NCBI GenBank assembly: GCA_009192285.1
Contig: WBVU01000008.1
Span: forward strand, 1,312,370-1,376,369
Source: Morchella semilibera
Taxonomy: Eukaryota > Ascomycota > Pezizomycetes > Pezizales > Morchellaceae
Length of the DNA stretch: 64,000 nucleotides
Direction of reading: 5' to 3'
Positions within the stretch are counted from its first letter, which is position 1. Every line of letters begins with the position of its first letter. The position numbers were made by a program, and so were the translations under genes. The notes under the pieces are model-generated. The model made no database searches. It was not told the origin of the DNA and saw only the letters and a program-made list of their open reading frames with translations. Positions 13,951 to 64,000 of the stretch are shown piece by piece.

Positions 13951-14459
13951 ACACAGGCCATGAGGTACACCGGGCAGTGATCCACAGGCACTGTTTACGG
14001 TGGACTCGACTGGGGACCATGAATATGACCTTGATCACCAAGAAGCAATGGACGGATTTTTCTCAGTGACTCAGGGCACATTAAAAGATTATGATGAATT
14101 TTGTGCTGAAATGGCAAGGAATGATGACTGGGTTGATTGCGGTCACGCTCAAGAAAATCCTAAGGCCATTTCCGGACCAGAGTCAGACAAGAAGGAAGTC
14201 TTCATTCCAACCATTCACCACATCGGGGTTCTTCGCTTTGGGTGTGGAACATGCGGTCATCATGAACCATCAAGGAACAAACTCTTCAAGCATCTACGAG
14301 AATGGGGTCACAGCACGGCTAGCGGGTATGACCTCGGAAGCAGTACGGAAGAACAGTTCCTAATAAGTCATGGGGAAGCTAAAGTCATCCAGTCTAAAGC
14401 TCCAAAGGTATTAGGGACTGGATACGCTTTCCGGGACTATAATTTCTTGGAAATCGCGG

Positions 14460-14830
14460 TGCGTACAGCCGCAGACTCTGAAGATATTTGGGTTTGTCTG
14501 GACACTGGATGTGGAGTCAGTCTAATCGACTCTGCGTGGATTAAGGAACTACTTCCGGAAGCTTCCATCCTCACACGTCCCAGTTCGGTCAATGTTAGAG
14601 GTCTTGGAGACGCCATTCATGCTTCCAGCCAATACATGCTCCTTCAGCTCAGCATCCCAGCCACAGACAGTAACGATCAACCCATTATTGCGCAAATTAA
14701 CCGCGAGTTCCACCTAGTACCTAGCCTTGGATGCAAAATCTTAATCGGAACTGATGTCATCGTCCCGGAAAGAATGATGATCGATGCAGCTGGGGGAAAA
14801 GTGGTCATTGGCGAGTGTGATTCTGTAAAG
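14460..14830 (+). pseudogene. Aspartic protease part of element 1 (fossil)
   Basis: The retroviral-type protease is recognised by WVCLDTGCGVSLID (the DTG active-site motif) followed by a downstream ILIGTDVI segment that matches the conserved flap-distal strand of pepsin-like retroelement proteases. It lies between gag and reverse transcriptase as expected. It belongs to the fossil element and carries no host function. Confidence 0.85.
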
Positions 14831-15559
14831 GCGCCATTGAGAGTGACACTCAGGGGAAGGCAAGTGGTTCATAGGGCGGTCAAAACAAATCGGCTATGAC
14901 TATTAAACAATGGACGAAGTCTTGGGTGCCTATCAAGTTTCAGAAATTGGAAGGCGGAAGAGATTATGAGTTCACGCCACGCTACAGCAAAGCAACGGCA
15001 TATCTGGCATCAGCAGGAGGTTTCAGTAGGCATGTGGTTAGTGAACGGGTAAACGCTGTCATCTACAACAATCGAAGTGCTCTCCCAATACGCATTGAGA
15101 AGAACACAAAGATTGGGGTCTTAGATGATTTTGAATCTTTGGTACATCACTTCAGAATCAATGTTGAAGCGCAACCGGAGTTTGCAGAGTGCGCGGAATC
15201 AGGAGAATGGGTCATTACGAACCAAAATCTGGAAGTTTCTATAGGAATACCCTACCGGTCACACCTTCTTCCCCCCATGATGGGAAGACATTTCTGGTTG
15301 GAAATGCAAGGTTTCCAGGCCAGCGTCACGGATCGGAAATCAAAGTATGGAATTGACTCTGTTAACTTCAACGAAGAAGACAACATTAGTGCTTCGGAAA
15401 TCGCGTCACTTAAGTCCTTGGCGAGAAACTACTCCAAGGTTTTCGAGGATTTAGGGTCAGTGGTTGATGAACTGGAAGAGGATTGGATGGTTATTACGCT
15501 TAAACCGGATGCTAAACTGGGACTCGCGGGGACCCTATAGGGTATCGGAGCGCGATAAA

Positions 15560-16200
15560 GAGATAATCGACAAAACCTTCGATAGGATGCACGACGAATC
15601 GAAGATGGACTGGGGCACTGGAGGCCCAATTGGATGGCCAGTATTTGTAGTCTGGAGCAAAGGAGCAGGAAGGGTCGTGGTAGACATCAGAGGCTTAAAC
15701 GAAGGATCATGGGGAGATTCTTACCCATTACCTCGACAGGAAGATATCATTACCTGTGTGAGAGGAAAGAACTGGATTACCACCCTAGACTTGTCACAGG
15801 CGTTCCTCCAGAGGAGGCTATCAAAGAGTCTAGATAGTTGACAACAGTGGTAACCCATAGGGGTCAGGAGGTTTTCACCGTTACTCCCATAGGATATAAG
15901 AATTCCCCAGCGCATATGCAAAGATATATGGAACGTTTGCTTAGGGACCATAAGAGCTACGCACGCTGCTTTATTGATGATATCACTATTTTTAGCGAAA
16001 GCTTTGCCGAACATTTGTCCCACCTTGAAGCTATACTTTTGGTTTTATCCAAGTCGTTCATCTATCTCAAGGCGTCGAAATGCTATGTCGGTTTTCCACG
16101 GTGCAAAAATCCTCGGACGTTTTGTCGATCGGTTTGGACTTTCTACAATTGAAGAAAGACTAAAGCCATACGTGAAATGATTTTTCCTACCACGCTCGCA
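15560..16200 (+). pseudogene. Reverse transcriptase part of element 1 (fossil)
   Basis: The polymerase palm is visible from GWPVFVVWSKGAGRVVVDIR, through DSYPLPRQEDII and TTLDLSQAF, to the catalytic FIDDITIFS motif (a YxDD variant). The order and spacing fit Ty3/Gypsy reverse transcriptase. The region is interrupted. It sits directly upstream of the RNase H part. Confidence 0.88.
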
Positions 16201-16379
16201 GAATTAGAAACATTTATCGCAATGGTCGGGTATTACCAGCCACATATACCATATTATGCGGCATTGGTTGCTCCGTTGGAAAAAGTTGAAAACTACACTA
16301 CTGAAACCGGCTCCAAAAGGCGGCAAAGAAAGAAAACACTACGTTTCATCTTCTAAGGACATTATCCCGACAAGCGCTC

Positions 16380-16900
16380 AAATGGAGTCATTCAAACTTT
16401 TACAAGAAGCTCTGGCAAAAGACACAACGCTAACCCATTTCGATGGATCTATCCCTCTTTTTGTTAACCTTGATGCATCCAAAGAATGGGGATACGGGGT
16501 GTCTATCACGCATTTTCCACGAGAGCTTATGAAAGCTCAATTTTCCTTCGAAGATATCGTGGCTTGCAAGCATAACAGGTGTGAGTCAAAACCTATATGC
16601 TACATTTCAAAAAGTTAAACAGGCATGAGATGAATTATTGGCCTACAGAATTGGAGGTGGCTTGTTTGGTATGGACTATACGCAAAATCAGGCACTTGGT
16701 AGAGGAGTGGGTCATCACCATTATTTTCACGGATCATAATTCTTCCGTGGACATCACCAAACAGACTAGCATGGCTAACGCGACGGCCCATAAGCAAAAC
16801 CTTCGTTTAGTCCGCGCTTCCCTATACCTTAGTCAATTCGATAGGTTAGATATCCGACATCTGCCGGGAAGGGAAATATTGCTGCAGATGCGCTCTCTAG
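16380..16900 (+). pseudogene. RNase H part of element 1 (fossil)
   Basis: LFVNLDASKEWGYGVSI carries the first catalytic Asp region. It is followed by NYWPTELEVACLVWTIRKIRHLVEE (catalytic Glu region), then IIFTDHNSSVDIT (the TDH strand typical of Ty3/Gypsy RNase H) and DIRHLPGRE. It lies between reverse transcriptase and integrase and belongs to the fossil. Confidence 0.85.
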
Positions 16901-17229
16901 GCTGCGAGCAGCTGAAACTGAAGTCTTTCCCGAGAAAGTGGGGTGTTGATATTTATGAAACCCTACATACAGAAGCGGTAATGGTTCGAATCTCGGATGA
17001 CCTTGTCGACCGTTTCCAGGAAGGGTATCAGAACGACAATTTTTTTCGGTCCAAATTCAATGAGCTGAAAAGAAATTCTTTGCACCAGGAAATGAGGGAA
17101 GCACTTCGCACGAATATCAAAATATAGTCATCGAAGACGCGGAAAACAGCACTTTCATCACCGGAACAGAGGATCGTCCCACTAGAAGTAATAGGGAGAA
17201 AAGATTCTTACTTTACTTGAAGGACAACG

Positions 17230-18330
17230 ATGGCATCCTGAGGCTCTGCATTTCCGAAACTTCTTCATGCCAGCTTCTTACAGATGGCTCCACGATAAGC
17301 ATAAACATGCCGGCGTTGAGAGAACATACACTCGTCTGCGACAAATTACTACCTGAAAGACATGTCTAAGGTGGTAAAAAAATATGTGGAACACTGCCCA
17401 TCTTGTTTGACCAATGAGACACACAGACATAAGCCGTACGAATCTCTGCGTCCCATCAACTCGCCCTCGTTACCATGGGAATTAGTGAACATGGATTTTG
17501 TTGTCGCTCTCCCACCATCAGCGCCCACCTTGCATATTTGGAAGGATTGCACCCCTCCTATTCCAACCTATGACGCAATCCTTACAATAACCGATAAATG
17601 CACTAGATCAATACGCCTCCTTCCAGGGAAAGGAAATTGGTTTGCAAGAGATTGGGCCGAGTCATACTTCGACGCGGTATACCCGATAATGGGCTTACCA
17701 GGTGGTATCATCAGCGACAGGGGCTCTGTTTTTTTGTCAAGATTCTGGACATCGCTTTTTAGTCTCATGGGTACGGATTGTATTGCCACGACAGCATATA
17801 ATCCCCAAGCAGACGGGCAAAGTGAAAGGACAAACCAAACTATGGAAATCGCCCTGCGTCATTTGGGAAATGGAAGGCAGGATAATTGGGTGGACGCCCT
17901 TGGGCAAATTCAAATTGAACACAACAACGCCACCAATGCATCAACGAAGAAATCACCCAACGAGCTTCTTTTCCTTTATATGCTTAGGACCATCATTGAC
18001 TTGACGGCACCGGCAAGAATCGAAGCCTCCAGAGCAAGAAGCAACGAGGCTTTAGGAGTCACAATGGGTGCAAAGCTGCGTGTGATGAGGGATGACGCCC
18101 TTGACGCCCTAAGGTTCAGCGAATTCGCTATGGCTGTTCAATTTGATAAGAGGCACGAGAAAGTAGATTTCCGCGTAGGGGATATGGTTTACATCAACTT
18201 CGCGAGAAAGATGGAAAAAGGGTACACCGTTGCTGGAATTAACTCGCCAAAACTAGGACCCCAGAGAGCTGGGCCTTTTCCGGTGCTGGAGATGATTGGG
18301 AAGAATGCCTGCCGTTTAGGTGATATTCCC
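17230..18330 (+). pseudogene. Integrase part of element 1 (fossil)
   Basis: A zinc-binding end (HCPSCLTNETHRHKP) is followed by the DDE core: MDFVVALP and YDAILTITDKCTRS, then GGIISDRGSVFLSRFW, and TTAYNPQADGQSERTNQT, where the catalytic Glu follows the conserved NPQADGQSER block. A C-terminal YINFARKMEKGY/KLGPQRAGPFPVLE segment matches the GPY/F region of Ty3/Gypsy integrases. Confidence 0.9.
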
Positions 18331-18439
18331 ACAAGTTGGAAAATTTGGCCAGTTATTTCAGTTACCAACCTCGAGCGCGCGCCCGCTGGGACTGACCCCT
18401 ACAATAGAAGAACCACGGTGCCCCCAGATATCAATAGAG

Positions 18440-18610
18440 AAGGAGTCGATAGACCGGTGGACATTGTTTTAGATACGAGGTTGTTTCATGGACAAAGGCA
18501 GTACTTGGTTAAATGGAAAGACGCTCCTGTCGAGCAAGCATCATGGATGTCAGAAATGGATCTCGAATACGCGGAGGAAATGGTGTTGGAGTTTAATAAG
18601 ACTCATCTCA
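18440..18610 (+). pseudogene. Chromodomain at the integrase C-terminus of element 1 (fossil)
   Basis: PVDIVLDTRLFHGQRQYLVK, then WKDAPVEQASWMSEMDLEYA, matches a chromodomain: IL..R...G...YLVKWK...  ..WE/SW. Chromodomains at this place define chromoviruses and in related elements guide insertion towards heterochromatin. Only family membership is inferred here. Confidence 0.85.
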
Positions 18611-18931
18611 ATGCTGGGAAGAAGAGAAAGGCATAAGCGATATAAACGTGGAAACGCTCGGGAAGCAAGGGATCGGGAAGCAAAAAGTTTTTTTTTTTTT
18701 TTCTTTTGTTGTTGTTGTCTTGTTTGTTTTTCTGGCTTTTTATTATATTAATTTTTGCTACTGGCAACAACGAGAGAGATTAAGCTGGGAAGGTTATGCT
18801 TATGTTGTTCAGGTGGACTGATTGCATTGTTTTGCTTTGGAAATTGTTTCTATTTATTGTTTTGCTTTGATATTTATTTATATGCTTTGAGAAGCAGGAG
18901 ATTGGCTTTTTTTGTTGTTTTTTGGGGGGAC

Positions 18932-19049: not shown

Positions 19050-20784
19050 CATGACTCAGCACTTGTCTTTCCAAAAAGGGACTGATCAGCGCGTGTTACT
19101 TGTGCCAAGACCGGCCCCATCACCGCGTCCGCCATTTATGCACCACAACTAACTGTCTCTTATCTGAAACAACGTACCATCAACCGATCGGATCACCGCG
19201 ACTTTAGATAACCGAATGTTCTATAACAGCTACAATCGGTCTAGACCAAGCAGACTTTTGGGACAATACCCAGTGCTATGAGGATACCACATGATACACC
19301 GTAATGATGATTCTCTCAGCTGTGCGTTCACCCCACGATTCATCTTTGGGCCAGCTTGAGTGTTGGATAATGGCTATGACGGGTCGGAGATGATAAAATC
19401 CGTGACTACACATACGAAAGCCTTTGTAGGGTGCTCGGTGCCTTCCAATGGCTGGCCTTGCTCTTGCCACGTCAGATTCTTGCTTTATGCATACTTAGCC
19501 AAGTACCCATAAGGATCAACCAGGAATACAAATCTTGTTTGAATCCCGCAGACAAAGCAGAGGTAGAGATCTCGCGCCGGCAGGGATATGGGGAGGTATC
19601 TGGATACGGATGGGGCGGGGAGCGGGGGTTTATCATCTTCGAAAATCTAAACCGGAGCTACCCGGCCGGTGGCCCTGACATGGGCAAAAAGTTCCACGTG
19701 GGTCTCAGATGCGATACCATCGGTGACTCCTAGATCAACACTTTAACTCCACAACACTAGTACCCTACAGGAAGTGGGGTACTGGTCCGCTACGGCACCC
19801 TAGAACGACACCACCAGACCAAACAATTCCCGCGATCGGAAGACAGAAATTTGATCGATCGGGCAGGATGGATGTCTGAACATCGTCACTGTACGAACGG
19901 AAGCCCTCCATACCGGGTCGGTGGGCAGTCGCGCCAGTCTAAAGGCAAATTATGATTACCGATATTGTACATTATATCCGGCCGCGGACCTGGTGCCGTC
20001 TGTGGTGCAATGAGACCCAACAATTCGGCTGAGGTCCCTGTGGGCTGCCAGTTCCGGGGGAACTACACCATCGCGCCACCAGGTGGTGGGCTCGGTTGCA
20101 AGGAAGGTTGTCGGCGGGAGTGGGGGGGGGGGGGGGGTGCTGCTGCTACGTGCAGTATATGCAACAGCAAAGAGTTGATGGAAGGAGGTAAAACACCTTC
20201 AACAGCCAGGTTGAATGAACTTCTAGGAGTCATCGTGCGAGGAAGCTTGTGACCGATACTCACGATCTGCCTGCCATATACAGACAGATATATACGCTGG
20301 CCGGCCATTTACCTAAACATGTTACATATGATTTTACGCAAAATAGAGATTGAACGTAACTGGGTGTAAATTGCTCTATTGGGATGGGATTAGATATACA
20401 TGCAGGAAAGAAACATCAGGAGAGCTTTACGTCACTGCACTTGTAGCGCTGGTGGACATTCAAACCTTGCAAGCATATACCCAGTCACATGTAGTACACC
20501 TTTTGTCTCCCACCTTAGTCCACGGTTAAATACAGGGAGCAAGGTCGGGTATTGAATGTGTGTGATTACTATCCCTGGCTCACTAGCCGTAGAGGGCGAG
20601 TCTACTGCAAGTGTGGGACGTTGGAGGAAGTCCTCAGCTCTTCTTGTCTCCTTCCAAAGCAGGTGTGAATTTCAGGCCCATAAATACTCTCAAATGCATC
20701 ATCAACAACCAAACCCACAATGAATTCATTTTCCAAAGTCCACCCACTTCCCTAAACTTCATATTAGCACCACAACTCACAAAT
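19050..20784. other. Gene 1 upstream region, two weak open frames
   Basis: This is the interval between retroelement 1 and gene 1. Two plus-strand open frames are somewhat protein-like: 19431-19733 (100 residues, hydrophobic start, then GYGEVSGYGWGGERGF) and 19965-20252 (95 residues, cysteine- and glycine-rich). They match no family I know and could be remnants of one small gene. A G15 run lies near 20121-20136. A TATA-like CATAAATA at about 20679 sits about 100 nt before the gene 1 start. Confidence 0.3.
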
Positions 20785-22703
20785 ATGCCCTTTAGCTTTC
20801 TTTCTTCAACTTGGGAGATCGGTCACCTGTCGGCAAAAATCTTCCTATTCAAAATTTCGACCCTCTGCATTGAATATTGCATTTTCAAGGGATATGCAGT
20901 TGTTTCCCTCAAGATCCTGTCCTATGAGTCCTATCTCATGTCATTGGAGACGGCATTTGAACGGTTTGCGTATGTCTGCTTGCCAAAGCCACGGGATCAG
21001 AAAAAAATAAAGGAACGCTGGGCTCTTACTTGTTTTGTTCTGTCTCTTCTCGTCTTTGGCCTCTATGACACCATGCTCTGTGGCCTCGAGCGTCCCGGAA
21101 CGATCCGAAAGAGCTCTTATCGGCGTGCAAGCCAGCTGCCGTGCAAGCTCGACACCTCCGGAAACTATGTCGTCCATACCAAAGGGATACCCGGTATGGT
21201 GGAGGGCATTGATCTGGTTAGAGACATTACCCAAGGTGTTTGGCTCCCAGCGAATAGAACACACCTCACTTTGACTGGAGATGTTGATATCGGAAACCCA
21301 GAAATTTTTCCTGCAATGCGGATACCAGCTGCCCAGCACCAAGGGAACAGAATATTCCTAGATACAAGGGGATGGTCAATTGCTGCTGATAGCGACCCAG
21401 CAGTAGTCTGTCCAACCTCCTTCGACGGCATGGTAGAGACATGGCGTTGCAACTTCCATGTGAATGGTTCTGACGCTATTCGAATCCTCACCAAAGAACT
21501 TGCAAGGCCTACTGTTTGGTGGAATACCTCCAAAGTTGATGCGGGTGGGTGGGATATCGCCGCAGAGATTGGGGGTAATCCTTGGGCTGTTCTCGGTGCT
21601 CAACAGCACGAAACAGTCGCAAAAGCTGAGGTTCTGACGGTCAGTAAAGGCGACGTGAAGAACGTGTTCCTGAATAAAGCTATGAAGGTGAGTACCTAAC
21701 GTCCACAACACTGTCATGACAAGCGAAGAGTGTAGTTCTGACGAAAGTAATGCAGGTTAGCATGCTCGGAGTGGAGGGAGGTGAGCTTGCAGATTCCGAC
21801 ATCGCCGATTTAATCGACAGACGCTGGCCGCCGAAAAACATCCCTGGAAACCTAACTGCTAGGGCCGTTGCAATGGAGATTATTTCTGCCAAAAGAAAAG
21901 GCTTAGGTTCAACAGTTGGGTGGGGCACGACCGAAGATGAGGGTCTCAAGTTAGAGTATTGGACCTTTATATATGGTATCGACCCCAAACGTGCCGAAGG
22001 CAAACTGGCAAATTCTACGACGCGGTCCACCGGCACACCCTACTTTCGTATCCATTCCTCTAGCCTTCGCCTTCTTGACACCATCAAGGGCTCGGTCATT
22101 CCACCACCGACTGAGCAATGCAATAAACCATTTGTCTCAATAGCCAACGGAGGCATACCACGATATTCTACCTGCGAAAGAATCAGAAATCTGTCATCCA
22201 CAGGCTCCGACATGCTCGGACAGCTAGACACCTCCGCTCTCTATATCCTTGCTGATACTCTGGGACGCACCTACGGCAAGAACTCAACCCGTGCCTTGTT
22301 CCCCAACGCATATCGATGGTACCTGGATCATGAGGAGGAAATTGATCGTCTTGTCACTTCACGGGGGTACATAGTCGGTGCTAATTCTACCGCGGTTACT
22401 GTCCTCATGGACATTGATGTTGAGGCAATATCTTCACTCCAACTCATGTTAGTACTTGTACCTATTGCTTTGGCGGTCGCTATCCAACTGTACACCTGGC
22501 GTATTCTACCACTCAACTATAGATCCACTCTTCTGTACCGCCTCAGGAAGAGTGAATGGAATATCGATGGGGTCAGGGAGGATCTCGAGGCCTCCCCAGC
22601 ACACGAGCTGGGCCCTAACCCTATCACCACACCCAACGGCCCACAAGGCGCCACCGGGTCGGAAGCAGTTCACACCCCAGGACGAATGATAGACGTGAAT
22701 TAA
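20785..22703 (+). CDS. Unknown two-membrane-segment protein, gene 1 (two exons)
   Basis: The coding sequence joins 20785-21687 and 21756-22703 (616 residues). The start at 20785 is chosen because the following residues (MPFSFLSSTWEIGHLSAKIF) align with the start of the paralogue at 48039; an upstream in-frame ATG at 20611 adds 58 residues not seen there. A hydrophobic segment at about 79-101 (WALTCFVLSLLVFGLYDTML) and another at about 529-548 (LQLMLVLVPIALAVAIQLY) enclose a domain of about 430 residues rich in N-glycosylation motifs, which suggests a surface or secretory-pathway membrane protein with a large outer domain. Conserved blocks with the paralogue include VVHTKGIPG, LTGDVD.GN, ELARPTVWWNT, AEIGGNPWA.LG..QHETVA and a cysteine pair in ANGG.PR..TC.RIRN. 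Function is unknown and I recognise no named family. Confidence 0.88.
21688..21755 (+). other. Intron of gene 1
   Basis: This 68-bp intron has donor GTGAGT (21688-21693), a CTGAC branch-like site at 21738-21742 and acceptor GCAG ending at 21755. Removal restores the frame and gives AMK|VSMLG, which matches LKVSMLG in the intronless paralogue. The intron falls between codons (phase 0). Confidence 0.9.
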
Positions 22704-26099: not shown

Positions 26100-27950
26100 C
26101 CTCCGGCTTAGCGCACTCGGTACCTTGGTTTACCCCTCTACCTTGGTATATCAACACCCCCGACCTCCCCATCGAATTCTTTAAAGATGTCCCTCCCACT
26201 AGCGTTGACCTCACAGGAAGACCACAACATGGCGGAAGCCATCGTGGTCAGAGACAGAGACACTGCCATGGCCCAGGCTCACCCAACAATAGCCAGCAGA
26301 GCCAGGGACACCCCCGCTACAGAGCTATAGAAGCCGGCCCCCCTCAAAGCCAAAGCCCCGAAGAAGGTCCGCAAACGAGACCCCAGAAGGATTACACGCA
26401 GCTCCGCCAGCATGGACCTCAACCCCTTCGAGACTCCGACAAGGCAAGCCACTATTACAGTGAGGCGCTCTGGTTCGGATGGGGATATGAGCGACGCCAG
26501 CTACGCAAGCACCTCCTCCGCCGGCGAACACTTCTACGAGCAGGAGACCCCACGACCCCTCAGGACCGAGGTACTCGTCCAGGGCATGAGAGGTCTCGCA
26601 GCTCAAACGGGCGCGGCATGACAGACAGAGGCTAGGACACGGGAACACCAGTATGGCCAGGTAGTCCAAGGTGGACAACAACTGGTGGGAGAATTACAAG
26701 AGAAGTTCCGGGAAGTAGAAGGACACCAAGGGCAGATGACCGCCGCTCTTGGCACCTTAGTCAACCAGTTCCAAGTCTATGCGCAAAACCAGCAGACGGA
26801 AACTGAGCTAAGGTTCAGACAGATGGCCCTCGAGAATGAGCAACAACGGCAACGGACTCAGGAGCTAGCAGCCTACATACAGGCTCAGCAAGCGGAGAAA
26901 AGCCTGGACTTGCCAGAAGGGCTAGCAGCCACTATTGCGGCAGCCCAGGTAGCCCCACAACCTAAGGCACCTACCTCTACTATCGACACCATCGAACCAG
27001 AGCTAAGGACATCAGCAAGCTTTACCATTTGTGACTGGAGTCTCCTGAGTCTCCTGACAGTCTCCTAAGTCTCCTGAGAACCCGGTAATCTCCTGAGATT
27101 TGTAAAATCTTGCTGATGGAAGATGCTGAGGGTAACACTGAAGGCACTAAAAGGGAAGCAACCCCGGGTTGAGTCTGAGAAAGATTCCCCAGGAGAAGGA
27201 AGGGCACCGCCACCCTCACCCCCAGCCAACAGGAGGAGGAGTAAATCCCCGTCTCCACCACCCAGAAGATCCAACGGTAAACGTAGGAGGGAGGAGGAGC
27301 CTGTACTGGATAAGGGAGCGGCAGGAAATAGTGGAGGAAATAGTGGCGGGAGGGGAAGAAGAAGGCACAGGAGGGATGACAGTCCAAGCTCATCGGACTC
27401 ATCCAACTCCGCCGATGATGATAGGAGAAGAAAGAAGAGAAGAGGAAGGCACCACCGGCGAGCAGAAACGCAGTCACCGGCACCCCACAGCCACCGCAAG
27501 GGAGAAACACCCAAGCAGGCAAAAATCTCCTTCTCTGGCAAACCCGATGAAGACGTCCGTCATTGGATCGATCGTATGGAGATCCTAATGGACCTTCAAC
27601 CCCGAGTCACCTGGGATGATAAGACTCGAATCTTTGGGCATCCCTGGAATTCACCGGAGTGCAGCAAGATTTCTGGCGCACTGTTAAGGAAAGGCTTTAG
27701 TGTAGAACCTAGCTCGGTACTTGGGAACGTTTCAAACAGGAAACTCCGCATCCAGTACAGGTAACGACCCAGCCAAGAACAGGCCAAGCGAGAAAGATGG
27801 ATAATCTGCCGTCAAAACTGTCCTATCTAGACGATTACATGCAATAAGATGCAAAACCTTGAGTGGGACGCTCGAGTGGTCCAATTCGTCATGAACTCTA
27901 TGATTCTGACAGAATAAACCCACGTTGGAACAAAGATTTATCCCGCTGGC
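26100..27950 (+). pseudogene. gag region of element 2 (fossil)
   Basis: The N-terminal part shows MDLNPFETPTRQATITVRRS and a coiled-coil-like glutamine-rich stretch (ELRFRQMALENEQQRQRTQE). It is followed by an Arg/Ser-rich linker and then ISFSGKPDEDVRHWIDRMEI, which matches the start of a Ty3-type capsid domain. The inserted CATCAGCAA element at 27010-27118 separates these. This is a fossil and is not intact. Confidence 0.78.
27010..27118. mobile_element. Small CATCAGCAA-ended element with GTCTCCTGA repeats, copy 2
   Basis: A 109-bp segment with ends CATCAGCAAGCTTTA and (other strand) CATCAGCAAGATTTT, and GA directly outside both ends. The interior again begins TGTGACTGGAGTCTCCTGAG, carries five or six GTCTCCTGA-like units, and closes CTTGCTGATG. 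It is shorter than copy 1 (12749-12884) but shares the ends, the TGTGACTGGAGTCTCC block and the repeat unit. The 2-bp flank is GA rather than TA. Confidence 0.6.
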
Positions 27951-28234
27951 ATTGAAGAACCATCTGAAATCCCGGATTGGTTTGGCATGGGTTCGAAAGA
28001 GTGGGAAATGAAAAGATCTGAAGTCAGGTCCGCCAGAAGATTCTGCGTGGAAGAGAACAAGAGACCCCAGGAAGCTCGAGAACCTAAGCAACCAATGAGA
28101 CCAAACGCCAGCGACCCCGCCGCCCGTAGAAAGGAGCGCGACGAATCCCGTCCCCGTTAAAAAGGTCGAGAAGAGCTCCCGCAACAAACCTCGCCCACTG
28201 AACAGGTAGCTTAAGGAGTCCACCCCAGACAGAG

Positions 28235-28302
28235 AAGGATCAATTGGCGGGGGGCGGGGGGGGGGTTGGGGGGGGCGGGAGGGGGGGGGGGGGGGGGGCC
28301 CA
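28235..28302 (+). repeat. Long G-rich tract within element 2
   Basis: About 65 bp that are almost entirely G, including a run of about 18 (28281-28298). It can form several G-quadruplexes. Runs like this are also prone to length error in sequencing, so the exact length is uncertain. Confidence 0.8.
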
Positions 28303-29029
28303 AGGAAAAAAAATGTCTTCGGGGGAAGAGAAAGGTCACTGACAAAGGAATGCTACTCAGCCACGAAGGTAGGATGGCAAAGTAGGACGGAACGATTCAG
28401 TGGAAGAAGAGGAAAAGGGAAGATAAAACCTTCGAGGACGGAATGGAACCGGAAGGGGAGAGTGGAAAAGCAGGAAAGGGACCTCAAAGGCGAAAGCATT
28501 TAGGGCCAGGAGTACGGCACTTGGGGAAAGATTAATTTGTGTTATAATATTGTCCTATGGGATTTTTCCTTAATTTGTTGTGCTATAGATAAATTAAGGA
28601 ATGCGAAAAGTAAATCTTCTTATATAAAGCTATATTGCAGAAAGCAATGGCCAAATGCAGAGATCCAAGAACTCGAGCCTAGAAGTTCAGAAATCAGAGG
28701 GGCCACACAAGATAGCGGACAGTAAGATGCACTGCGCACTGTTGACTTGCCGACGACCCTGTGGAGAGACTGCCATGAATAGTAAGAAACTCGTTGGCTA
28801 AGGTAAGGTATTGGCTTTTGGGCAAATGACGTGTCAAAGCTACCCCGCACTTAGCTATATAAGAGACCCCATCCGCCTGCAAGGAGAAGAACATCAAAAC
28901 CATCCCTCTCTTGCCATTACCAAAACAATGACTACCTCACTCACGAGAAACCCTCCGCTCCCCCCCCCGGCCCTGTGGCCTCGAGATAAGAAATCTCTGG
29001 CTCAACCCCAAAGAGCCCAACAAAACTTC

Positions 29030-29470
29030 AACCCACACGTCCAGCCTTGCTAGACAGCGGCACCGAGACATGGATTATGTCCTGGAACTGTTCAAGCAGG
29101 CCGATATCCCAGTTCAGACCCCACCACCCTGCTCATTAAACAAGCTGATCGGCTCACGCAATGACCTCACTCCCGGTTACCCACATTACCTCAAACCTCT
29201 CACACTCCGCATTGGTAGTCACCTCGACAGGTTAGTCACCTGTGAAATAGGTACCTTTGCTGGAGAAGATCTCGTCATACCACATCGATGGCTCGAGGAG
29301 CATCAACCTACGATACAGTGGGGCCAGAATAAGGCTACCTTCAATAGTATCAAGTGCCAGATTAAGGATTGCATGATGACAGAAGGAGACATGTACGAGG
29401 AAGGCTGGCAAGAAAAGGTCGTCAGACTCCTGCGACACATGCCTGAACCTGACATGCCCCTCGAGTCACA
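29030..29470 (+). pseudogene. Protease part of element 2 (fossil)
   Basis: ALLDSGTET near 29047 matches the DSG active-site motif of Ty3/Gypsy aspartic proteases. Downstream residues (TCEIGTFAGEDLVIPHRWLE) resemble the second half of the domain, in which fungal Ty3 elements keep a DLVIGxxWL-like strand. It lies just upstream of the reverse transcriptase. Confidence 0.65.
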
Positions 29471-29639
29471 CCCTTTCTGAGCACGAAACACGGGAAGCGA
29501 GACTCTCGCTAGTGCTATCCCGGAAGAGTTCCAAGACTACGCAGATGTGTTCTCCCCTGAAGGAGCAGGACGCCTGCCGGAACATAGTGAGTGGGATCAT
29601 ACGATTCCTCTCTTGGACGGAAGCCAACCTCCGTGGGGT

Positions 29640-30280
29640 CCTATTTATGCATTGTCACCCCCGGAACAGAAAGCGTTGAGGGAATACCTGGACGAAATGT
29701 TAGCGGCAGGTAAAATTGTCCCATCTTCCAGCCCAGCAGCGGCACCAATCCTCTTCGTCCCTAAACAAGATGGGTCACTACGGTTATGCGTCGACTACCG
29801 CGGCTTAAACTCCGTCACAGTCAAGAACCGGTACCCACTGCCTCTCATGACAGAGCTGGCAGACTCGACGAAGGGAGCTCTCTTCTTCACCAAGATAGAT
29901 CTCAAGAACGGTTACAACCTAGTAAGGATCGCGGAGGGAGAAGAGTGGAAGACAGCTTTCCGGACCAACTACGGCCACTTCGAATATAGAGTGATGCCTT
30001 TTGGCTTGACCAACGCCCCGGCAACGTTCCAGGCAATAGTTAATACCATATTCAAGGACCTGTTGGATCAGGGCCTAGTGGTTTACTTGGATGACATCCT
30101 GATATATTCCAAGTCCAGAGAAGAGCATGTAGCTCTTGTGCGCAGGGTGCTGGAGCGGCTACGACATCACCACCTGTATGGCAACCTGAAGAAGACTGCT
30201 TGGTTCCAAACGGAGATAAAATTCCTAGGATTTAAGCTATCAGGTAGTGGCACCCAGGTCTCACCCTAGAAGGTGAAGGC
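29640..30280 (+). pseudogene. Reverse transcriptase part of element 2 (fossil)
   Basis: A clear Ty3/Gypsy reverse transcriptase: SPAAAPILFVPKQDGSLRLC, VDYRGLNSVTVKNRYPLP, FFTKIDLKNGYNLVRI, FRTNYGHFEYRVMPFGLTNA, PATFQAIVN and the catalytic VVYLDDILIYS. This is the best preserved part of the element. Confidence 0.93.
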
Positions 30281-30419
30281 TATCACCGAGTGGTTGGTAC
30301 CCACAAAGGTGAAGGAGCTTTAATGCTTCTTGGGATTCGCCAACTTCCTAAAGCGGTTCATCTACGGGTATTCTGCGGTATGCAAACCCATGACCGATCT
30401 CCTGAAGTAGAATGCTGTA

Positions 30420-30890
30420 TGGAAGTGGGGTCCGGAGCAGCAGGATGCTTTTGAGGGGCTCAAGAAGCTATTCGCCACCGCTCCTATCCTCCGACACTAC
30501 GACGAACATCGCATGGCTGTCCTTGAAACAGATGCCAGCGACTGGGCAGAGGCTGCGGTCTTGTACAGGGTGTCGAAGAATGGCAAAGGCTACACCCGGT
30601 GGCTTACCACTCTCGCAAGTTCAACGAGGCCGAAGTCAACTATGAGATCTATGATAAAGAGATGCTCGCAATAGTTTCGCCCTCCTGACTTGGAGACATT
30701 GGCTGGAAGGTACGGACATACCTATCCAGATCTATTCTGATCACCAAAACCTTCCAGTACTTCACAACGACCAAGAAGCTGTCAAGAAGACAGGCCCGAT
30801 TGGGCTGAAAAGATAGCACCTTTTCACTTCAAGATCCACTTTCGACCAGGCGACAAGAACGGGAAACCTGATGCATTGACCAGGCGCCCG
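30420..30890 (+). pseudogene. RNase H part of element 2 (fossil)
   Basis: Readable pieces match Ty3/Gypsy RNase H: WGPEQQDAFEGLKKLFATAP and HRMAVLETDASDWAEAA (first catalytic Asp), with later fragments of the EIYDKEMLAI and DHQNL type and a HFRPGDKNGKPDALTRRPEY tail near 30840-30900. The region is interrupted. Confidence 0.8.
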
Positions 30891-31259
30891 GAGTACGCTA
30901 TGGAAGGGGGAGTAGTTCGAGAGCAGCCAGTAAAAATGCTCCTCTCACCTGAACACTTCGCGGAAAGAAATCTCCTCCCTGAAAATTTTGCAAGAAGGAC
31001 ACAAGCGGGAATAGAACCTCGTGAAGAAATTCTTTGCAATCCCTCATCGGAAGTGCGTTCAGTGGATCAGTGGGTACACATACCAGGAGTGGAAATGCCT
31101 GCGGCTCTGCAAAACTGGTATGAAGAAGAAGGTCGATGGACTCGTAGGATAGTTCCGGAGGAACTCCTTGAAAACGAAGATCCTGAGGACCTGTGGACCC
31201 GGCAGACCATCTTGCGGGAGGCTGCAACAGAGTGGGATCCCGATCAGAACACAGCGACT

Positions 31260-32300
31260 CATGAAGGATGCTGGTAGTGCCTGGGCACGCAGTCAAGCAG
31301 GTCATAGAAGACCATCACGACCGACCTACGGCGGGGCATCTAGGCAGAGATAAAACCTGGGAATTGATTGACAGGAACTACTGGTGGCCAGGAATGTCCA
31401 CGGACGTAGCCAAATATGTCAGCACGTGCGATGTATGCCAGAGAGTCAAGCAACGACGACGACATATGTCTCTTCCGCAGCCCCTAGAGTTAGCCACGAC
31501 CCCTTGGTGCGACATCTCCATGGATTTTGTAGTAGAAATGCCCAAGGAGCGGTCAAGTTTCCGGAACGTCATGGTTGTAGTGGACCGCTTCAGTAAAATG
31601 GCGCACTTCATCCCAATGACAGGAATCAACGCGGAGCAAACCGCACAAGCATTCGTCAAAGACATCTGGCGCTTTCACGGACTCCCGCGATCAATAGTAT
31701 CGGACCGAGGAACTCAGTTCGTGTCAGCCTTCTGGACCGCGATCACCGAACGACTAGGGATTCAATGAAGACTCTCGACCTCGTTCCATCCGCAGACAGA
31801 TGGTCAGACGGAAAGGACTAACCAGAATATGGAGTCCTATCTACGAGCGTTTACGGCCGGTACAGGTAAGAAGTGGAGAGACCTACTTCCTATCTGCGAA
31901 TATGCCTACAACAACGCCAAACACTCCTCTACCGGGCAGTCCCCGTTCTATTGCAACTACGGTTTTCACCCTCGCTCAGACTGGCCTACGGATGTGGAGA
32001 TTGAGCGGCTGGATGCCGAAGGAAATAACCACCTGGATGAGATCCTCGCCGCCCATGAACTGGCCCGGGAAACCCTACAGCAGACGTACGATAAAATGGC
32101 GTCACGACCTGGTCCCGCAGTGCAGCAGTTCGAACCAGGGCAGAAGGTCCTGCTAGACACAAGGAACCTCGGCGGATATAACAAGTGGTCAGACAAGTTC
32201 ACTGCACCCTTCGAAGTACTAGCCAAGGTCGGTAATCGAGCGTACCGACTAGACCTACCAGCAGACTGGAAGGTTCATAACGTGTTCCATGAGATGCTCC
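31260..32300 (+). pseudogene. Integrase part of element 2 (fossil)
   Basis: The zinc-binding end (YWWPGMSTDVAKYVSTCDVC) is followed by ISMDFVVEMPKERSSFRNVM, VVVDRFSKMAHFIPM, LPRSIVSDRGTQFVSAFWTA and a readable NMESYLRAF segment, then a GPY/F-type tail (WSDKFTAPFEVLAKVGNRAY, VHNVFHEMLLRPY). No chromodomain follows, and the end is a basic tail. It is the fossil's integrase. Confidence 0.9.
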
Positions 32301-32599
32301 TGCGACCCTATCGTGAAGATGCGGATCCCCACAGGAAGCAGAACACTCGCAAACGGCTGGCAACACCAGAGCCCCAAGAGGCACTGATTGATGAAAATGC
32401 CAAACCGGTTACCAGCAACCGTCCTCGTACTCGGAGTCAAGGCATAGTAGCTCCGGAGTCCGGAGCACGGCAGACTAAGAGACAGCGGCGGTTGACAGAG
32501 CAATAATCCCGATACCTTCCCTCATCATGGCTTTTCCCACGGGGTTTTTTCCATGGAAGGGTTTAACGGTCGAGGACGACGGCTTGGAAGGGGGAGTAG

Positions 32600-48038: not shown

Positions 48039-49916
48039 ATGGACATCATCAAGTCATCCTATCCCATTGGTAGTAACGCTGCAAAGTCGTTACTCTTTCG
48101 CGCCTCAGCATTCTTCCTCGAACTTGCCATCCTCAAAATTCACGCCATAATGTCGTTCCGGAGGTCTGCCTTTACGGCCTACCTCATGTCCTTCGAGTCC
48201 ACCATTCAAAAGCTAATTTTCTGTTTTACCCCCACCTCTTCGAAATCAGGAAGAAAAGGGCGCCACAGCATCCTAATCCTCCTCTTTTTCATCATCTTTG
48301 CTGGGCTTTATGATACCATGCTGTGGGGCATTGATTTCCCCGGTACTGTCTCGAGAGCCTATCGCCTACCGGCTAGTGAAGTCAAAGGGACAAGGGACCT
48401 CTCAGCCGATTATGTTGTGCATACTAAGGGAATACCTGGACTGATTGCTGGCATCGACCTAACGGAGGAGATGAGTAAGGGTCTGTGGAAAGGCGCAACC
48501 AATGTCACCTTAACTGGCGATGTCGACGTCGGGAATGCCCATATCTCTCCTGGTGGTTATCTACCAAATGATCTACATCCAGGCCCAAGGATTTGGTTGG
48601 ACGAGGATGGATGGTCTATAGCCCTAGATTATAACCCATCTTTATTTTGTAACACGTCGTGGAGAAGACCTGTAGAAAGGTGGAACTGCCCCTTCAACAT
48701 GTCCGAGAAGGCTTCTACAAAGTATCAGTTCAAGGAGCTTGCAAGGCCGACTGTGTGGTGGAATACCCGGGACCCTGACTCCGGGTGGTGGGAATCAAGC
48801 GCCGAGATTGGAGGTAACCCGTGGGCAGAACTAGGTGGGAGACAGCATGAGACCGTGGCTATGCGTGAGATTCTTACAGTTACAAAGGGGGATGTGAGAC
48901 ACGTCTTTCTCTTGTCGGCGTTGAAAGTGAGCATGCTGGGCTTGGTCGGTGGCGAACTTTCCTCTCAAGACATGGTTGATCTAATCTTGCGGACATGGCC
49001 GGAGGATGTTCCGAATAACACTACATATGCAGCTAAAAGCGTGATTAACGAGGTTCTGGCAGCAAAAGCTAACGATTCTGGAATTTCGATTGGCTGGGGT
49101 ACGGTCCAGGAGGGAGGATTCGCTCTAACCTCTCATAGTTATATCTATGGCACCGATTGGTACATGCGGCCGGAGGGAAATACCACAGAACACAACACAG
49201 GGAGCCGCGCAGGAACGTACTATTTCCGGATTCAGTCTTCTCGACTCCGCCTTCTCCGTACTGAGAGGGTGCTACGTATCCCCCCACCAGCCGAACCATG
49301 CTACGACAAACCATATGTTTCGGTAGCCAACGGAGGGCTCCCTCGGTTTACCACCTGCTACAGAATTAGAAACTTTCAGAATACAAGCAACACCGGACTG
49401 CTCGGTCAATTCGATACCTCGGCTATCTATATTCTTGCAGATACTCTAGGCCGAGCCTACGCCAAAAACTCCTCTCGTTCCTTGATCCCGAGCGCCTACC
49501 AATGGTATCTAGAGCATGAGACGGAGCTCGATCGGCTAATAATCTCAAGGGGGTACATCACCGGCTCAAACGCCAGCGCTGTCACCGTCTTGCATCATGT
49601 CACCGTTCCGGCTCTCTCCCCCCTCCAACTTATACTAGCTACGGCAGCCTTATTTCTAGCGATGGTCCTACATGCTTTGGGCTGGTATCTACTGCCGCCG
49701 GGATACAGGTCTTCCCTCCTAGCGAGTCTTACAGCGTCAATAGAGGAGGGGTACAAAAAGCATGTTAGTTATGGATATGTGGTGGACCCACCGGAGATAG
49801 GAATCCTTGAGACGGGTGAGGCGGTCAAAATAGTGACGAGGACCGGCACGTTTGGTCACAGCTCCGAGATTGAGAAAGGTCAGAGCTTGGATGTGGACAA
49901 GAAGGGACGGATATGA
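48039..49916 (+). CDS. Unknown two-membrane-segment protein, gene 2 (intronless paralogue)
   Basis: A single open frame of 625 residues. The arrangement is as in gene 1: a hydrophobic N-terminal region, a membrane segment at about 76-96 (HSILILLFFIIFAGLYDTML), an outer domain of about 430 residues with many N-glycosylation motifs, a second membrane segment at about 529-550 (LQLILATAALFLAMVLHALG) and a cytoplasmic-type tail rich in charged residues. About half the aligned residues match gene 1 by eye. Shared blocks include YDTML.G, VVHTKGIPG, LTGDVDVGN, ELARPTVWWNT, SAEIGGNPWAELG.RQHETVA, VSMLG..GGEL, a conserved cysteine pair (PPPAEPC and PRFTTCYRIRNF), and DTSAIYILADTLGRAYAKNS. It lacks the intron of gene 1 at exactly that position. 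Function unknown. Confidence 0.92.
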   Translation: MDIIKSSYPIGSNAAKSLLFRASAFFLELAILKIHAIMSFRRSAFTAYLMSFESTIQKLIFCFTPTSSKSGRKGRHSILILLFFIIFAGLYDTMLWGIDFPGTVSRAYRLPASEVKGTRDLSADYVVHTKGIPGLIAGIDLTEEMSKGLWKGATNVTLTGDVDVGNAHISPGGYLPNDLHPGPRIWLDEDGWSIALDYNPSLFCNTSWRRPVERWNCPFNMSEKASTKYQFKELARPTVWWNTRDPDSGWWESSAEIGGNPWAELGGRQHETVAMREILTVTKGDVRHVFLLSALKVSMLGLVGGELSSQDMVDLILRTWPEDVPNNTTYAAKSVINEVLAAKANDSGISIGWGTVQEGGFALTSHSYIYGTDWYMRPEGNTTEHNTGSRAGTYYFRIQSSRLRLLRTERVLRIPPPAEPCYDKPYVSVANGGLPRFTTCYRIRNFQNTSNTGLLGQFDTSAIYILADTLGRAYAKNSSRSLIPSAYQWYLEHETELDRLIISRGYITGSNASAVTVLHHVTVPALSPLQLILATAALFLAMVLHALGWYLLPPGYRSSLLASLTASIEEGYKKHVSYGYVVDPPEIGILETGEAVKIVTRTGTFGHSSEIEKGQSLDVDKKGRI

Positions 49917-60551: not shown

Positions 60552-60771
60552 CCCCGGGCCCGCTCGCGTGTTTTCCCACTACTAAGTAACTCTCTCGGAA
60601 ATGCCCCACAGGGGGGGTAAACTCCACGAACAACCGACTCAACCTACTATGACCAATAAGAAATCGAGTAATCAGAAACAAAACAACCCCCTAACGAACA
60701 CTATTGCCCAAGTGTGAGGGCAGCTAAATCCAGCGCACTTTCATATATCCCCCGAACACAGATACAAACAA

Positions 60772-60870
60772 GCTCAGGTAGTGCAGTGGTAGCACACCCT
60801 CACCAAAAACATTAAAAACTTACAAACCGAAAGCCGCAGGGAGACTTGGGTTCAATTCCCAGCCTGAGCC
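60772..60870 (+). ncRNA. tRNA-like Pol III gene, copy 1
   Basis: 99 nt: acceptor GCTCAGG/CCTGAGC plus C, D arm GTGC/GCAC with AGTGGTA loop, T arm TTGGG-TTCAATT-CCCAG. The A box (TAGTGCAGTGG) and B box (GGTTCAATTCC) are excellent and a TTTT follows 4 nt downstream. Between the D and T arms lie 50 nt instead of about 23, with a CCCT/AGGG stem at its base and an A-rich interior. No placement gives a normal anticodon loop with U33. Upstream is CATATATCCCCC and then ACAAACAA at the start, as for fungal tRNA genes. It may be a tRNA with an odd intron, a tRNA-like RNA, or a tRNA-derived repeat. Confidence 0.6.
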
Positions 60871-61401
60871 TACGTTTTGCTCATCAGGGGGGTTGGTTTT
60901 ATCAGGGTTAGGGTTAATTATCAGGTCTCAATTTCCCAGGGCGGCGGGCCGGGCAAGTGTGGTACCCTAGTCAATTGCGTTGATGTATCTATTGAAGTTC
61001 CTAGGACCAAATGTGTGGAGCTGGGTTAGTTTTCAAACCACAAACTCAACTCTGTAATCCTGGAACGGCGCGACTGCCCGCGCGTTCACCTCCTTACCTG
61101 TAGAAGTCGATGATTTGAGCCCGCGCCCACTGTTTACTACCAAAGGGCCTCCTAGGCTCTGCAAAATGTCTGGGACTATCACTGCTATGTATGAAATGTA
61201 CCCCCGGGCCCGCTCGGAAATACCCCACAGGGCTAAGGGGGGGATAAACTCCTGCGAACAAACGACTCAACCTACTATGACCGATAAGAAAGCGAGTAAC
61301 CAGAAACAAAACAATCCCTAACGAACACTATACTTGCCCAAGTGTGAGGGCAACTAAATCCAGCGCACTTTCATATATCCCCCGAACACAAATACAAACA
61401 A

Positions 61402-61500
61402 GCTCAGGTAGTGCAGTGGTAGCACACCCTCACCAAAAACATTAAAAACTTAAAAACCGAAAGCCGCAGGGAGACTTGGGTTCAATTCCCAGCCTGAGCC
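61402..61500 (+). ncRNA. tRNA-like Pol III gene, copy 2
   Basis: It matches copy 1 at all but one or two positions in the A-rich middle. Both box elements, all three outer stems and the upstream CATATATCCCCC/ACAAACAA block are kept. TTTT follows within 6 nt. Confidence 0.6.
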
Positions 61501-61959
61501 TACATTTTACTAATCAGTGGGGGTTGATTTATCAGGGTTAGGGTTAATTTCAGGTCTCAATTTCCCAGGGCGGCGGGCCGGGCAAGTGTGGTACCCTAAT
61601 CAATTGCGTTGATGTATAATCTATTGAAGTTCCTGGGACCAAATGTGTGGAGCTGGGTTAGTTTTCAAACCACAAAGTCAACTCTGTAATCCTGGAACGC
61701 CGCGCCCACTTTTTACCACCAAAGGGCTTCCTAGGCTCTGCAAAATGTTTAGGACTATCACTGCTATGTATGAAATGTAACCCCGGGCCCGCTCGGAAAT
61801 ACCCCACAGGGGGGGGATAAACTCCTACGAACAAACGACTCAACCTACTACGACCAATAAGAAAGCGAGTAACCAGAAACAAAACAATCCCACTAACCAC
61901 GCGTGAGCACAACTAAATCAAGACACGTTCATATATCCCCCAAACACAAATACAAACAA

Positions 61960-62058
61960 GCTCAGGTAGTGCAGTGGTAGCACACCCTCACCAAAAACAT
62001 TAAAAACTCAAAAACCGAAAGCCGCAGGGAGACTTGGGTTCAACTCCCAGCCTGAGCC
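61960..62058 (+). ncRNA. tRNA-like Pol III gene, copy 3
   Basis: 99 nt, as copy 1, with the T loop reading TTCAACT (B box GGTTCAACTCC, still a perfect consensus match). TTTT follows within 5 nt. It begins the run of 166-bp spacing. Confidence 0.6.
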
Positions 62059-62125
62059 TATTTTCTTGACCGGGGGGCTCGGTCACGACCACGTGCATAT
62101 ATCCCCCAAACACGCATACAAACAA

Positions 62126-62224
62126 GCTCAGGTAGTGCAGTGGTAGCACACCCTCACCAAAAACATTAAAAACTTATAAACCGAAAGCCGCAGGGAGACT
62201 TGGGTTCAATTCCCAGCCTGAGCC
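62126..62224 (+). ncRNA. tRNA-like Pol III gene, copy 4
   Basis: 99 nt, 166 bp after copy 3. Stems and boxes are kept and TTTT follows within 5 nt. The upstream block is shortened to CATATATCCCCCAAACACGC and ACAAACAA. Confidence 0.6.
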
Positions 62225-62291
62225 TATTTTCTTGGTCGGGGGGCTGGGTCATGACCACGGTCATCTATCCTCGAAACGCGCATACAGACAA

Positions 62292-62390
62292 GCTCAGGTA
62301 GTGCAGTGGTAGCACACCCTCACCAAAAACATTAAAAACTTATAAACCGAAAGCCGCAGGGAGACTTGGGTTCAACTCCCAGCCTGAGCC
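62292..62390 (+). ncRNA. tRNA-like Pol III gene, copy 5
   Basis: 99 nt, 166 bp after copy 4, with the same stems and boxes. The upstream block is more diverged (CATCTATCCTCG, ACAGACAA). TTTT follows within 8 nt. It is the last copy of the array. Confidence 0.6.
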
Positions 62391-62399
62391 AACATTTTA

Positions 62400-64000
62400 T
62401 TGATCGCACTGCTCACACATAAGGAGCTCCTAAACCATCAAGACTACCACGCACTAGTGTGGAAACACAGTTTGCAGACCACTCCGGTGCCCTTCTCGCC
62501 GTTAAGTAACTCTTTCAGCAACCCCACTCCTCCTGTCTCGCGTTTATCCCCTAGTGGAACTTGCCTTCTCAGCCTAGGTGAACACACAGCCCCGGCCACA
62601 AAGCGTGCCCCTGCGAGTGTACAATCAAATCCTCCACCTTCTCTTGACGCGAATGAGCACTAGTATGTGGTGCCATGACGTTATTGTACGTACAGGTATC
62701 AACATCCATTCTACCCCTTTGTACTACCTTACCACGGGGTCTCCCCCGGGACGACAAGTGACCTTTACCCGCGACCGACGTAGCAACGAGTGACAGCCGG
62801 TGACTGACAGCGAGTGATGTCCCAGCCCGAGTGATCACCCATGCTCCTGATCCGACCCGCCGTACAGAGGCGCACCAGTCCAAGTGAATCCCAGGCAGGC
62901 GAGCGACGCACCTCAAGAGCAGGCCACCCGCCCGCCGGAGGGGGCAATCCGCCCCGCCCTCAAGCAGGGGTGTTGCACGGCAACCAACTAGGCGCGTGAG
63001 CCCTGAGAGAGGGGTGTAAATGCTGGCACCCGCAGAGCGGTGAGGGACATGTAGCAGAAATACCTCCGGGACTTAGCTCCACGTACCCGCCCACCCCCCC
63101 CCCCCCAGGGTAGATCCTGGGGGATTGGGCGGCGGGCGGGTAGCGCAGGGGGGAAAATGTATCAGAAACGCCTACCGGGGGGCTGTCTTCAACCCCCCCC
63201 CCCCCAAAAAAAAAAAAAAAAAAAAAAACCGGGCAACTGGGCGGCGAGCGAATCATACGCCATAAAGCGCGGCGGCGCTTACTTGGTACCGGAAGAGCAG
63301 GATACTACTGGAAACCCCACGACCCGGTCGGGGAAGGTAGGATCTCGGGTAGTAATTGAGCCCAGAGAGAGGGCCGGCACCGCGGGGGGGGGGGGGGGGG
63401 GGGGAGCCTAGCTTGGTACCAGAGTGGCATGCGGAGCAGGGGGAGAGGGGGATATTAGCGGGTAGGCTTCCTAAGCAAGTTGGGTGGTTGCGCCCACGGG
63501 TGAGAGGGTAGCCTATCAAAAGTTATACCGCGCGGGCATAGCCGGGGGCCGGGCTGTGGGATTGTCTTGCTTCCGGGCACCAGCCGACGGCGTGGGGAGT
63601 GAAGGATACACACCGCACAGAGACGAGGAGGTGGGTGAGGAATAGTAGAGAATTGGTAGTGGCCACGCTTGGCAGGAGTATATCTGAAAAGTAGAAACTC
63701 TTGCCAACCCGGGAGCCAGACAGGCCATGTACTATTGACTAGATAATGAGGTCGGAGCTCTAACGGGACAAAATGAGTCGGACGAGAAGGTGACCCGGCT
63801 AATCATAGCTCGGATTAACTTAGAAAGCATAAACACTAGAGTGAGATCTTAGGAAACGCGTTATTGCCTCCCCCAACGGGGACAGAAAGCCCCTCAATTA
63901 TCGGCCAGGAAAGATCGTATACAACCGTAAAACAAGGCCCCCCGAAATAAAAGCTTCCAAACTATTTTTGCTGCCCGAGCGAAGCTAGAGGGATGTAGGC
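62400..64000. other. GC-rich non-coding DNA with long homopolymers
   Basis: No gene is supported. GC content rises after about 62.8 kb. It holds a C13 run followed by A23 (63193-63228), a run of about 21 G (63384-63404) and a C14 run near 63094. CGAGTGA phrases recur at 62788, 62810 and 62827. A GGTACC-centred phrase (CTTGGTACCGGAAGAGCAGG, CTTGGTACCAGAGTGGC) occurs near 63283 and 63412. Open frames here are translations of the biased composition. Confidence 0.5.

Follow-up and report, generated by a model that had tools for sequence, protein, structure and literature searches.

A five-copy array of tRNA-like genes with a conserved loop in place of the anticodon arm, and a second family on the same scaffold

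Near one end of the window, the 64,000-nt stretch of DNA analyzed here (C22:1312370-1376369 in an assembly of 56.7 Mb and 23 contigs), we identified five 99-nt tRNA-like genes, in all of which the anticodon arm has been replaced by a short stem bearing a long open loop. We propose, with moderate confidence and from comparison of sequences, that these are genes for small, presumably non-decoding RNAs, which would be made by RNA polymerase III (Pol III), be processed in the manner of tRNAs and present a fixed loop where a tRNA has its anticodon. The observations behind this proposal are the anatomy of the genes, the covariation of the stems in their family (type I), the conservation of the loop, the contrast between gene bodies and spacers in the array, and the presence in the same genome of a second family (type II) with a different insert.

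Anatomy of the array

The array spans positions 60772-62390 of the window, with its copies at 60772-60870, 61402-61500, 61960-62058, 62126-62224 and 62292-62390, all on the plus strand and where the original prediction had placed them. A check with covariance models, for which that prediction had called, matches all five to the Rfam tRNA family RF00005 (47.3, 47.3, 46.1, 47.3 and 46.1 bits, respectively; E-values of 5.5e-7 to 1.2e-6 for the whole window), above its gathering score of 29 bits. ARAGORN called none of the five; however, this carries little weight because the program also missed four loci that RF00005 detects. The acceptor, D and T stems pair as predicted, the A and B boxes are present (the latter as GGTTCAA[TC]TCC), and the residues underlying the tertiary fold of tRNAs, namely U8, A14, G15, the GG of the D-loop, C48, G53, TTC and C61, are found in every copy. 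A TTTT terminator starts 3-5 nt past the end of each gene, being at 60875-60878 for the first copy when read directly from the sequence.

The central part of the genes departs from this pattern, with 39 nt occupying the place of 11 RF00005 model positions around the anticodon loop. The predicted replacement of the anticodon arm by a segment closed by CCCT and AGGG is indeed seen, but at 45 nt from CCCT to AGGG rather than the 50 nt originally given: in the first copy (60797-60841, plus strand) it comprises a CCCTC stem strand, the open loop and AGGG. The array copies carry an additional C in the 3′ strand of this closing stem, while the full 5 bp are formed in the relatives at C11:1389813 (CCCTC/GAGGG) and C17:195463 (CTCTC/GAGAG). 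Straddling the stem/loop border of the first copy is the most conserved block, TCACCAAAAACATTAAAAA (60800-60818, plus strand), as judged from identities among loci and from a search with a 20-mer pattern. As originally observed, a U33 in a fitting position is absent from every copy read.

Upstream of the first copy lies a plus-strand block (60742-60771) with a TATA-like CATATAT (60742-60748) and ACAAACAA (60764-60771), and the same layout, which is conserved among type I genes elsewhere, recurs ahead of the four other array copies. The predicted block thus stands, with ACAAACAA preceding four of the five genes and ACAGACAA the fifth. A TATA-like word, defined after inspection, is present at -40 to -24 in 12 of the 14 type I genes compared (the array supplied five, and three decayed genes were left out), as against 12 of 35 distinct upstream regions of ordinary tRNA genes and 128 of 2,000 random stretches of the window. 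Likewise, CAA immediately precedes 13 of these 14 genes as against 2 of the 35 ordinary ones.

The array is also found on contig C21, identical over 4,380 aligned bases; this is likely a haplotype or assembly duplicate, and its five copies were counted separately. More generally, the contig pairs C21/C22, C9/C10 and C12/C13 bear the same features (tRNA genes) at nearly equal coordinates, resembling a partly phased or duplicated assembly. Elsewhere in the window we observed two sets of Gypsy-type remains split over several frames (12300-18636 and 27123-32506), with RVT_1, integrase zinc-binding and core, Tf2-1 SH3 and Chromo domains, and a pair of paralogous predicted proteins without a Pfam match (20611-22703 and 48039-49916; 45% identical over 299 amino acids). 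The domains of the Gypsy-type frames suggest that the genome is that of a filamentous fungus. Just downstream of the array (63090-63410), C, A and G each form long runs close to one another.

Two families on one scaffold

The genome search recommended by the original prediction revealed that the array is not alone. Using its first copy as query we recovered 17 places, with a loop pattern 35 places (18 counted as family), and with a diverged type I copy 22 places. On reading these, type I genes outside the array and its C21 counterpart were recognized at C19:5182645, C19:5182901, C19:193514, C11:1389813, C17:195463, C17:235475 and C4:2607212; one with a broken acceptor is at C22:2250040; and decayed ones are at C19:193362, C17:198244 (with a fragment near C17:198380), C16:444737 and C4:2607142. 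All type I copies read retain CTCACCAAAA with no more than two changes; the exception is C4:2607142, from which most of the loop is gone. The RF00005 gathering score is reached by four of the eight dispersed type I copies scanned. Thus, of the proposed signature of a dead repeat, many degenerate copies elsewhere, one part holds in that decayed type I copies do exist, but structurally intact ones stand alongside them. Contig C19 additionally carries a lone 5.8S-like stretch (1501-1672 of C19:2698087-2701258) with the look of degenerate rDNA, scoring 39.5 bits against an Rfam cut-off of 42.

The search with the diverged type I copy was also where we first encountered type II, in which the same scaffold bears another conserved insert, CCYAGAAACTCAGCAYGTAGRAGAYAGAGCTGTGAGGG, in place of the anticodon arm. 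A further search with one type II copy returned 25 places, comprising 24 type II copies and a single T-arm match to type I. An alignment of 22 of the 24 (setting aside a damaged copy and one whose body exactly repeats that of another) has a mean column identity of 93%; among 16 type II loci scanned, 15 attain the gathering score of RF00005, and 23 of the 24 copies possess all the tertiary-fold residues listed above.

Searches blind to the insert recover the same two families. A pattern for the 3′ part of the scaffold matched 38 places in the genome and none with the reversed control, which places the family beyond chance; 37 of these are type I or type II and the other, C11:1232329, is a partial piece. 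With the 5′ part, 44 places were found at up to two mismatches, of which 42 belong to type I or II (24 and 18), and 24 further places at exactly three mismatches, one recognized as family; the reversed control gave eight places at up to three mismatches. Two 5′ matches at two mismatches, C1:6549239 and C2:3506127, are unexplained, and one of them, we believe, resembles tRNA-Asp. Within these 3′ and 5′ scaffold searches no third insert was seen beyond the two. On viral contigs, the type II insert pattern matched nowhere and the type I loop 20-mer at one place, in unrelated sequence of one contig. No clear parent tRNA emerged either, the best identity to any of the 16 sequences compared being 68-71%, though tRNA-Asp appears to be the closer candidate in view of GGGAGAC and the D arm.

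Conservation of the stems and the loop

The type I structure is held by compensatory change. In an alignment of 12 rows, 95.4% of the stem cells are paired and five pairs have changed on both sides; none of 500 shuffles scored as high on any of five measures, although the shuffles ignore relatedness and the near-identical array copies make up five of the 12 rows. Sliding the partner strand reduces pairing to 32-49%. The stem below the loop is itself a case in point, with CCCTC/GAGGG becoming CTCTC/GAGAG in C17:195463. For type II, 94.0% of cells are paired, six of 500 shuffles were as high and the other measures resembled the shuffles, and pair 4:69 does not form in 12 of 18 rows; covariation is uninformative here because this family varies too little. 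Folding energies of nine sequences were mostly ordinary (z from -3.34 to +0.86), and several best folds were not cloverleaves. Model R1 is non-specific: it gave type II 46.5-54.2 bits and the damaged type II copy 18.8, but an ordinary tRNA-Gln received 43.8, close to type II.

Within the array, pairs of gene bodies show 1, 3 and 1 differences over their 99 sites (copies 4/5, 3/4 and 1/2, respectively), whereas the short spacers differ at 11 of 67 (Fisher p of 0.0002 and 0.003 against bodies 4/5 and 3/4, two values that are not independent because one spacer pair serves both comparisons). The spacer of copies 1/2 differs at 29 of 456 aligned sites, with 79 gap columns left out (p of 0.028). This contrast may reflect either selection or gene conversion.

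Across the dispersed loci, the open loop is the most conserved stretch of type I. Over seven loci (the array counted once, C19:5182645 and C19:5182901 being a local pair, and four decayed loci set aside), the A-rich loop block has a mean identity of 0.94 and the remainder of the gene 0.72; over all eleven, the two values are 0.90 and 0.68. Depending on the chosen block limits, the identity of the block ranges over 0.89-0.94 for the seven and 0.85-0.90 for the eleven. Permutations did as well in 4 and 1 of 20,000 cases, counts that overstate the conservation because the block was picked after inspecting the alignment. Over the seven loci, the T arm follows at 0.83, the acceptor at 0.76-0.77, the D arm at 0.73, the rest of the loop at 0.62, the 37 nt upstream at 0.55 and the outer flanks at 0.24-0.30. 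The second half of the block is swapped for another, longer sequence in two of the eleven loci, C11:1389813 and C22:2250040. Ten chosen type II copies give 0.82-0.93 for the acceptor, D, replaced-arm and T segments, 0.76 for the variable loop, 0.83 for the first 12 nt downstream, 0.59 for the 40 nt upstream and 0.33-0.39 farther out.

Interpretation and comparison with known systems

We envisage that Pol III would transcribe these genes from their A and B boxes, aided by the TATA-like block, and that the enzymes of tRNA maturation might recognize the tRNA half of the product, such that the retained elbow and acceptor half would furnish transcription, trimming of the ends, CCA addition and stability. 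The working part would then be the fixed, A-rich single strand held out in place of an anticodon, conceivably to be bound by a protein or to pair with another RNA; for the latter, a pattern search of the genome found 17 loop-like or complementary sites outside the family versus 14 in the control. Type II would represent a sister family that uses the same scaffold to present a different fixed insert. Among the three options originally put forward, a tRNA-like RNA, a tRNA with a non-standard intron and the founder of a SINE, the first is best supported, given the compensatory changes in type I and the rank of the loop as its most conserved part. Genes that resemble those of tRNAs but do not pass tests for an anticodon are usually dismissed as pseudogenes or SINEs, and here the best conserved part is the very one expected to be junk. 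If the RNA is made, it would be a naturally occurring tRNA body with a different message, through which the reasons why genomes retain tRNA-like genes that do not decode could be tested directly.

There is some chance, though we deem it improbable, that the families are instead short non-autonomous Pol III units, tail-less, SINE-like or otherwise, which spread with their promoter and whose RNA has no function for the host. The copies are both dispersed and tandem, with decayed ones among them, and type II may have spread as units: the C20 and C23 copies are 94% alike over a 204-bp unit with sharp edges and have nothing in common beyond it. Of these two units tested, the C23 one is flanked by a weak 5-bp match, whereas the C20 one lacks a 5-bp target-site match. 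Mobility of this kind also sits poorly with the terminator within about 10 nt of the gene, beyond which identity falls to 0.24-0.33, leaving neither a tRNA-unrelated body nor a tail. Moreover, the 37-40 nt upstream are conserved (0.55-0.59), which retroposed transcripts would not carry, and transcription alone needs none of the compensation that keeps the type I acceptor paired. With no body or tail, an upstream region conserved with the gene and few copies, the SINE founder was not supported as originally worded.

We consider it quite unlikely that these are pseudogenes, that is, tRNA genes that lost their anticodon arm, were duplicated locally and are now decaying. Visibly broken type I copies (C22:2250040, C4:2607142, C16:444737, C17:198244 and C19:193362) fit such a history, but the compensatory changes, a loop conserved above the stems, gene bodies conserved above the spacer and the retained promoter and terminator all speak against it.

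Decoding tRNAs with an unusual intron are very unlikely, in spite of the RF00005 match, which puts an insertion into the anticodon loop, and of the intron-bearing tRNAs present in this genome. By standard numbering of the alignments, a 7-nt anticodon loop with U33 is absent both directly and after intron removal at the usual site 37/38, which would leave C33 in type I or A33 in type II, and the anticodons obtained in this way suit no class I tRNA, as reasoned from both alignments. Furthermore, introns usually diverge faster than exons, whereas these genes conserve the insert best of all. The lack of a fitting U33 in the copies read and the conservation of the would-be intron thus argue against the non-standard intron originally considered.

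Membership in an LTR retroelement of the Helenus type (TRIMp3), or service as a dedicated primer for reverse transcription, we regard as very unlikely. Fungal Helenus LTRs do contain tRNA-like sequences (PMC10886601), and one type II unit on C20 sits between direct repeats of about 200 bp: in C20:83500-84500, repeats at 180-377 and 622-828 (94% alike) flank the unit at 397-600, a layout that is either LTR-like or a tandem duplication. A search for primer sites with the 3′ ends of the members plus CCA included two places out of 20 that match a member end exactly (C23:670756 and C6:180702); however, the reversed control also gave 20, such that priming is unsupported for want of an excess, and no LTR end was seen on reading the C23:670756 place. 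In the window, type II ends had no primer sites and type I ends five, which are the genes themselves; the 17 loop-like or complementary sites against 14 in the control tell equally against this explanation. An element acting as DNA, such as an extra-TFIIIC site (a known kind of site; PMC11346459) or an insulator, would explain the retained A and B boxes without an RNA, but is extremely improbable in the face of the compensatory stem changes, the conserved loop between the boxes and the retained terminators.

Other Pol III RNAs of tRNA-like form, SINEs and Helenus LTRs are known kinds, and no one of them could be matched to these genes in its defining features; in the literature, as judged by titles and abstract openings outside the missing subscription journals, we recognized no description of the type I or II families. 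The Helenus/TRIMp3 elements, whose fungal representatives are reported from Pucciniales and some Agaricomycetes (PMC10886601), similarly feature a tRNA-like sequence that has been amplified and in many cases lacks a working anticodon. In contrast, no LTR pair, primer site, polypurine tract or 5-bp duplications were demonstrated here, most copies having been examined with short flanks. The tRNA-derived fungal SINEs, such as AfuSINE2 (PMC5063351), share a tRNA-related Pol III promoter and low to moderate copy numbers, but our families are without an unrelated body, have a conserved upstream region and, as far as the two units tested go, lack clear target-site duplications. Also comparable are unannotated human tRNA-like RNAs with abnormal anticodon arms, which are expressed, though the portion of that account available to us (PMC7049693) mentions no family that is amplified and bears a long fixed insert. 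With bona fide tRNAs (RF00005), including those from intron-bearing nuclear genes, both families have in common the acceptor, D and T arms, the tertiary-fold residues, the A and B boxes and the terminator, and they differ in lacking U33 or a usable anticodon and in having a long conserved insert and a family-specific upstream block. Set against these systems, the two families might, as a tentative suggestion toward which we are rather more doubtful than convinced, typify a class of eukaryotic non-coding RNA in which a complete tRNA elbow and acceptor carry an exchangeable fixed display where the anticodon would otherwise be, one genome having amplified at least two displays of this kind.
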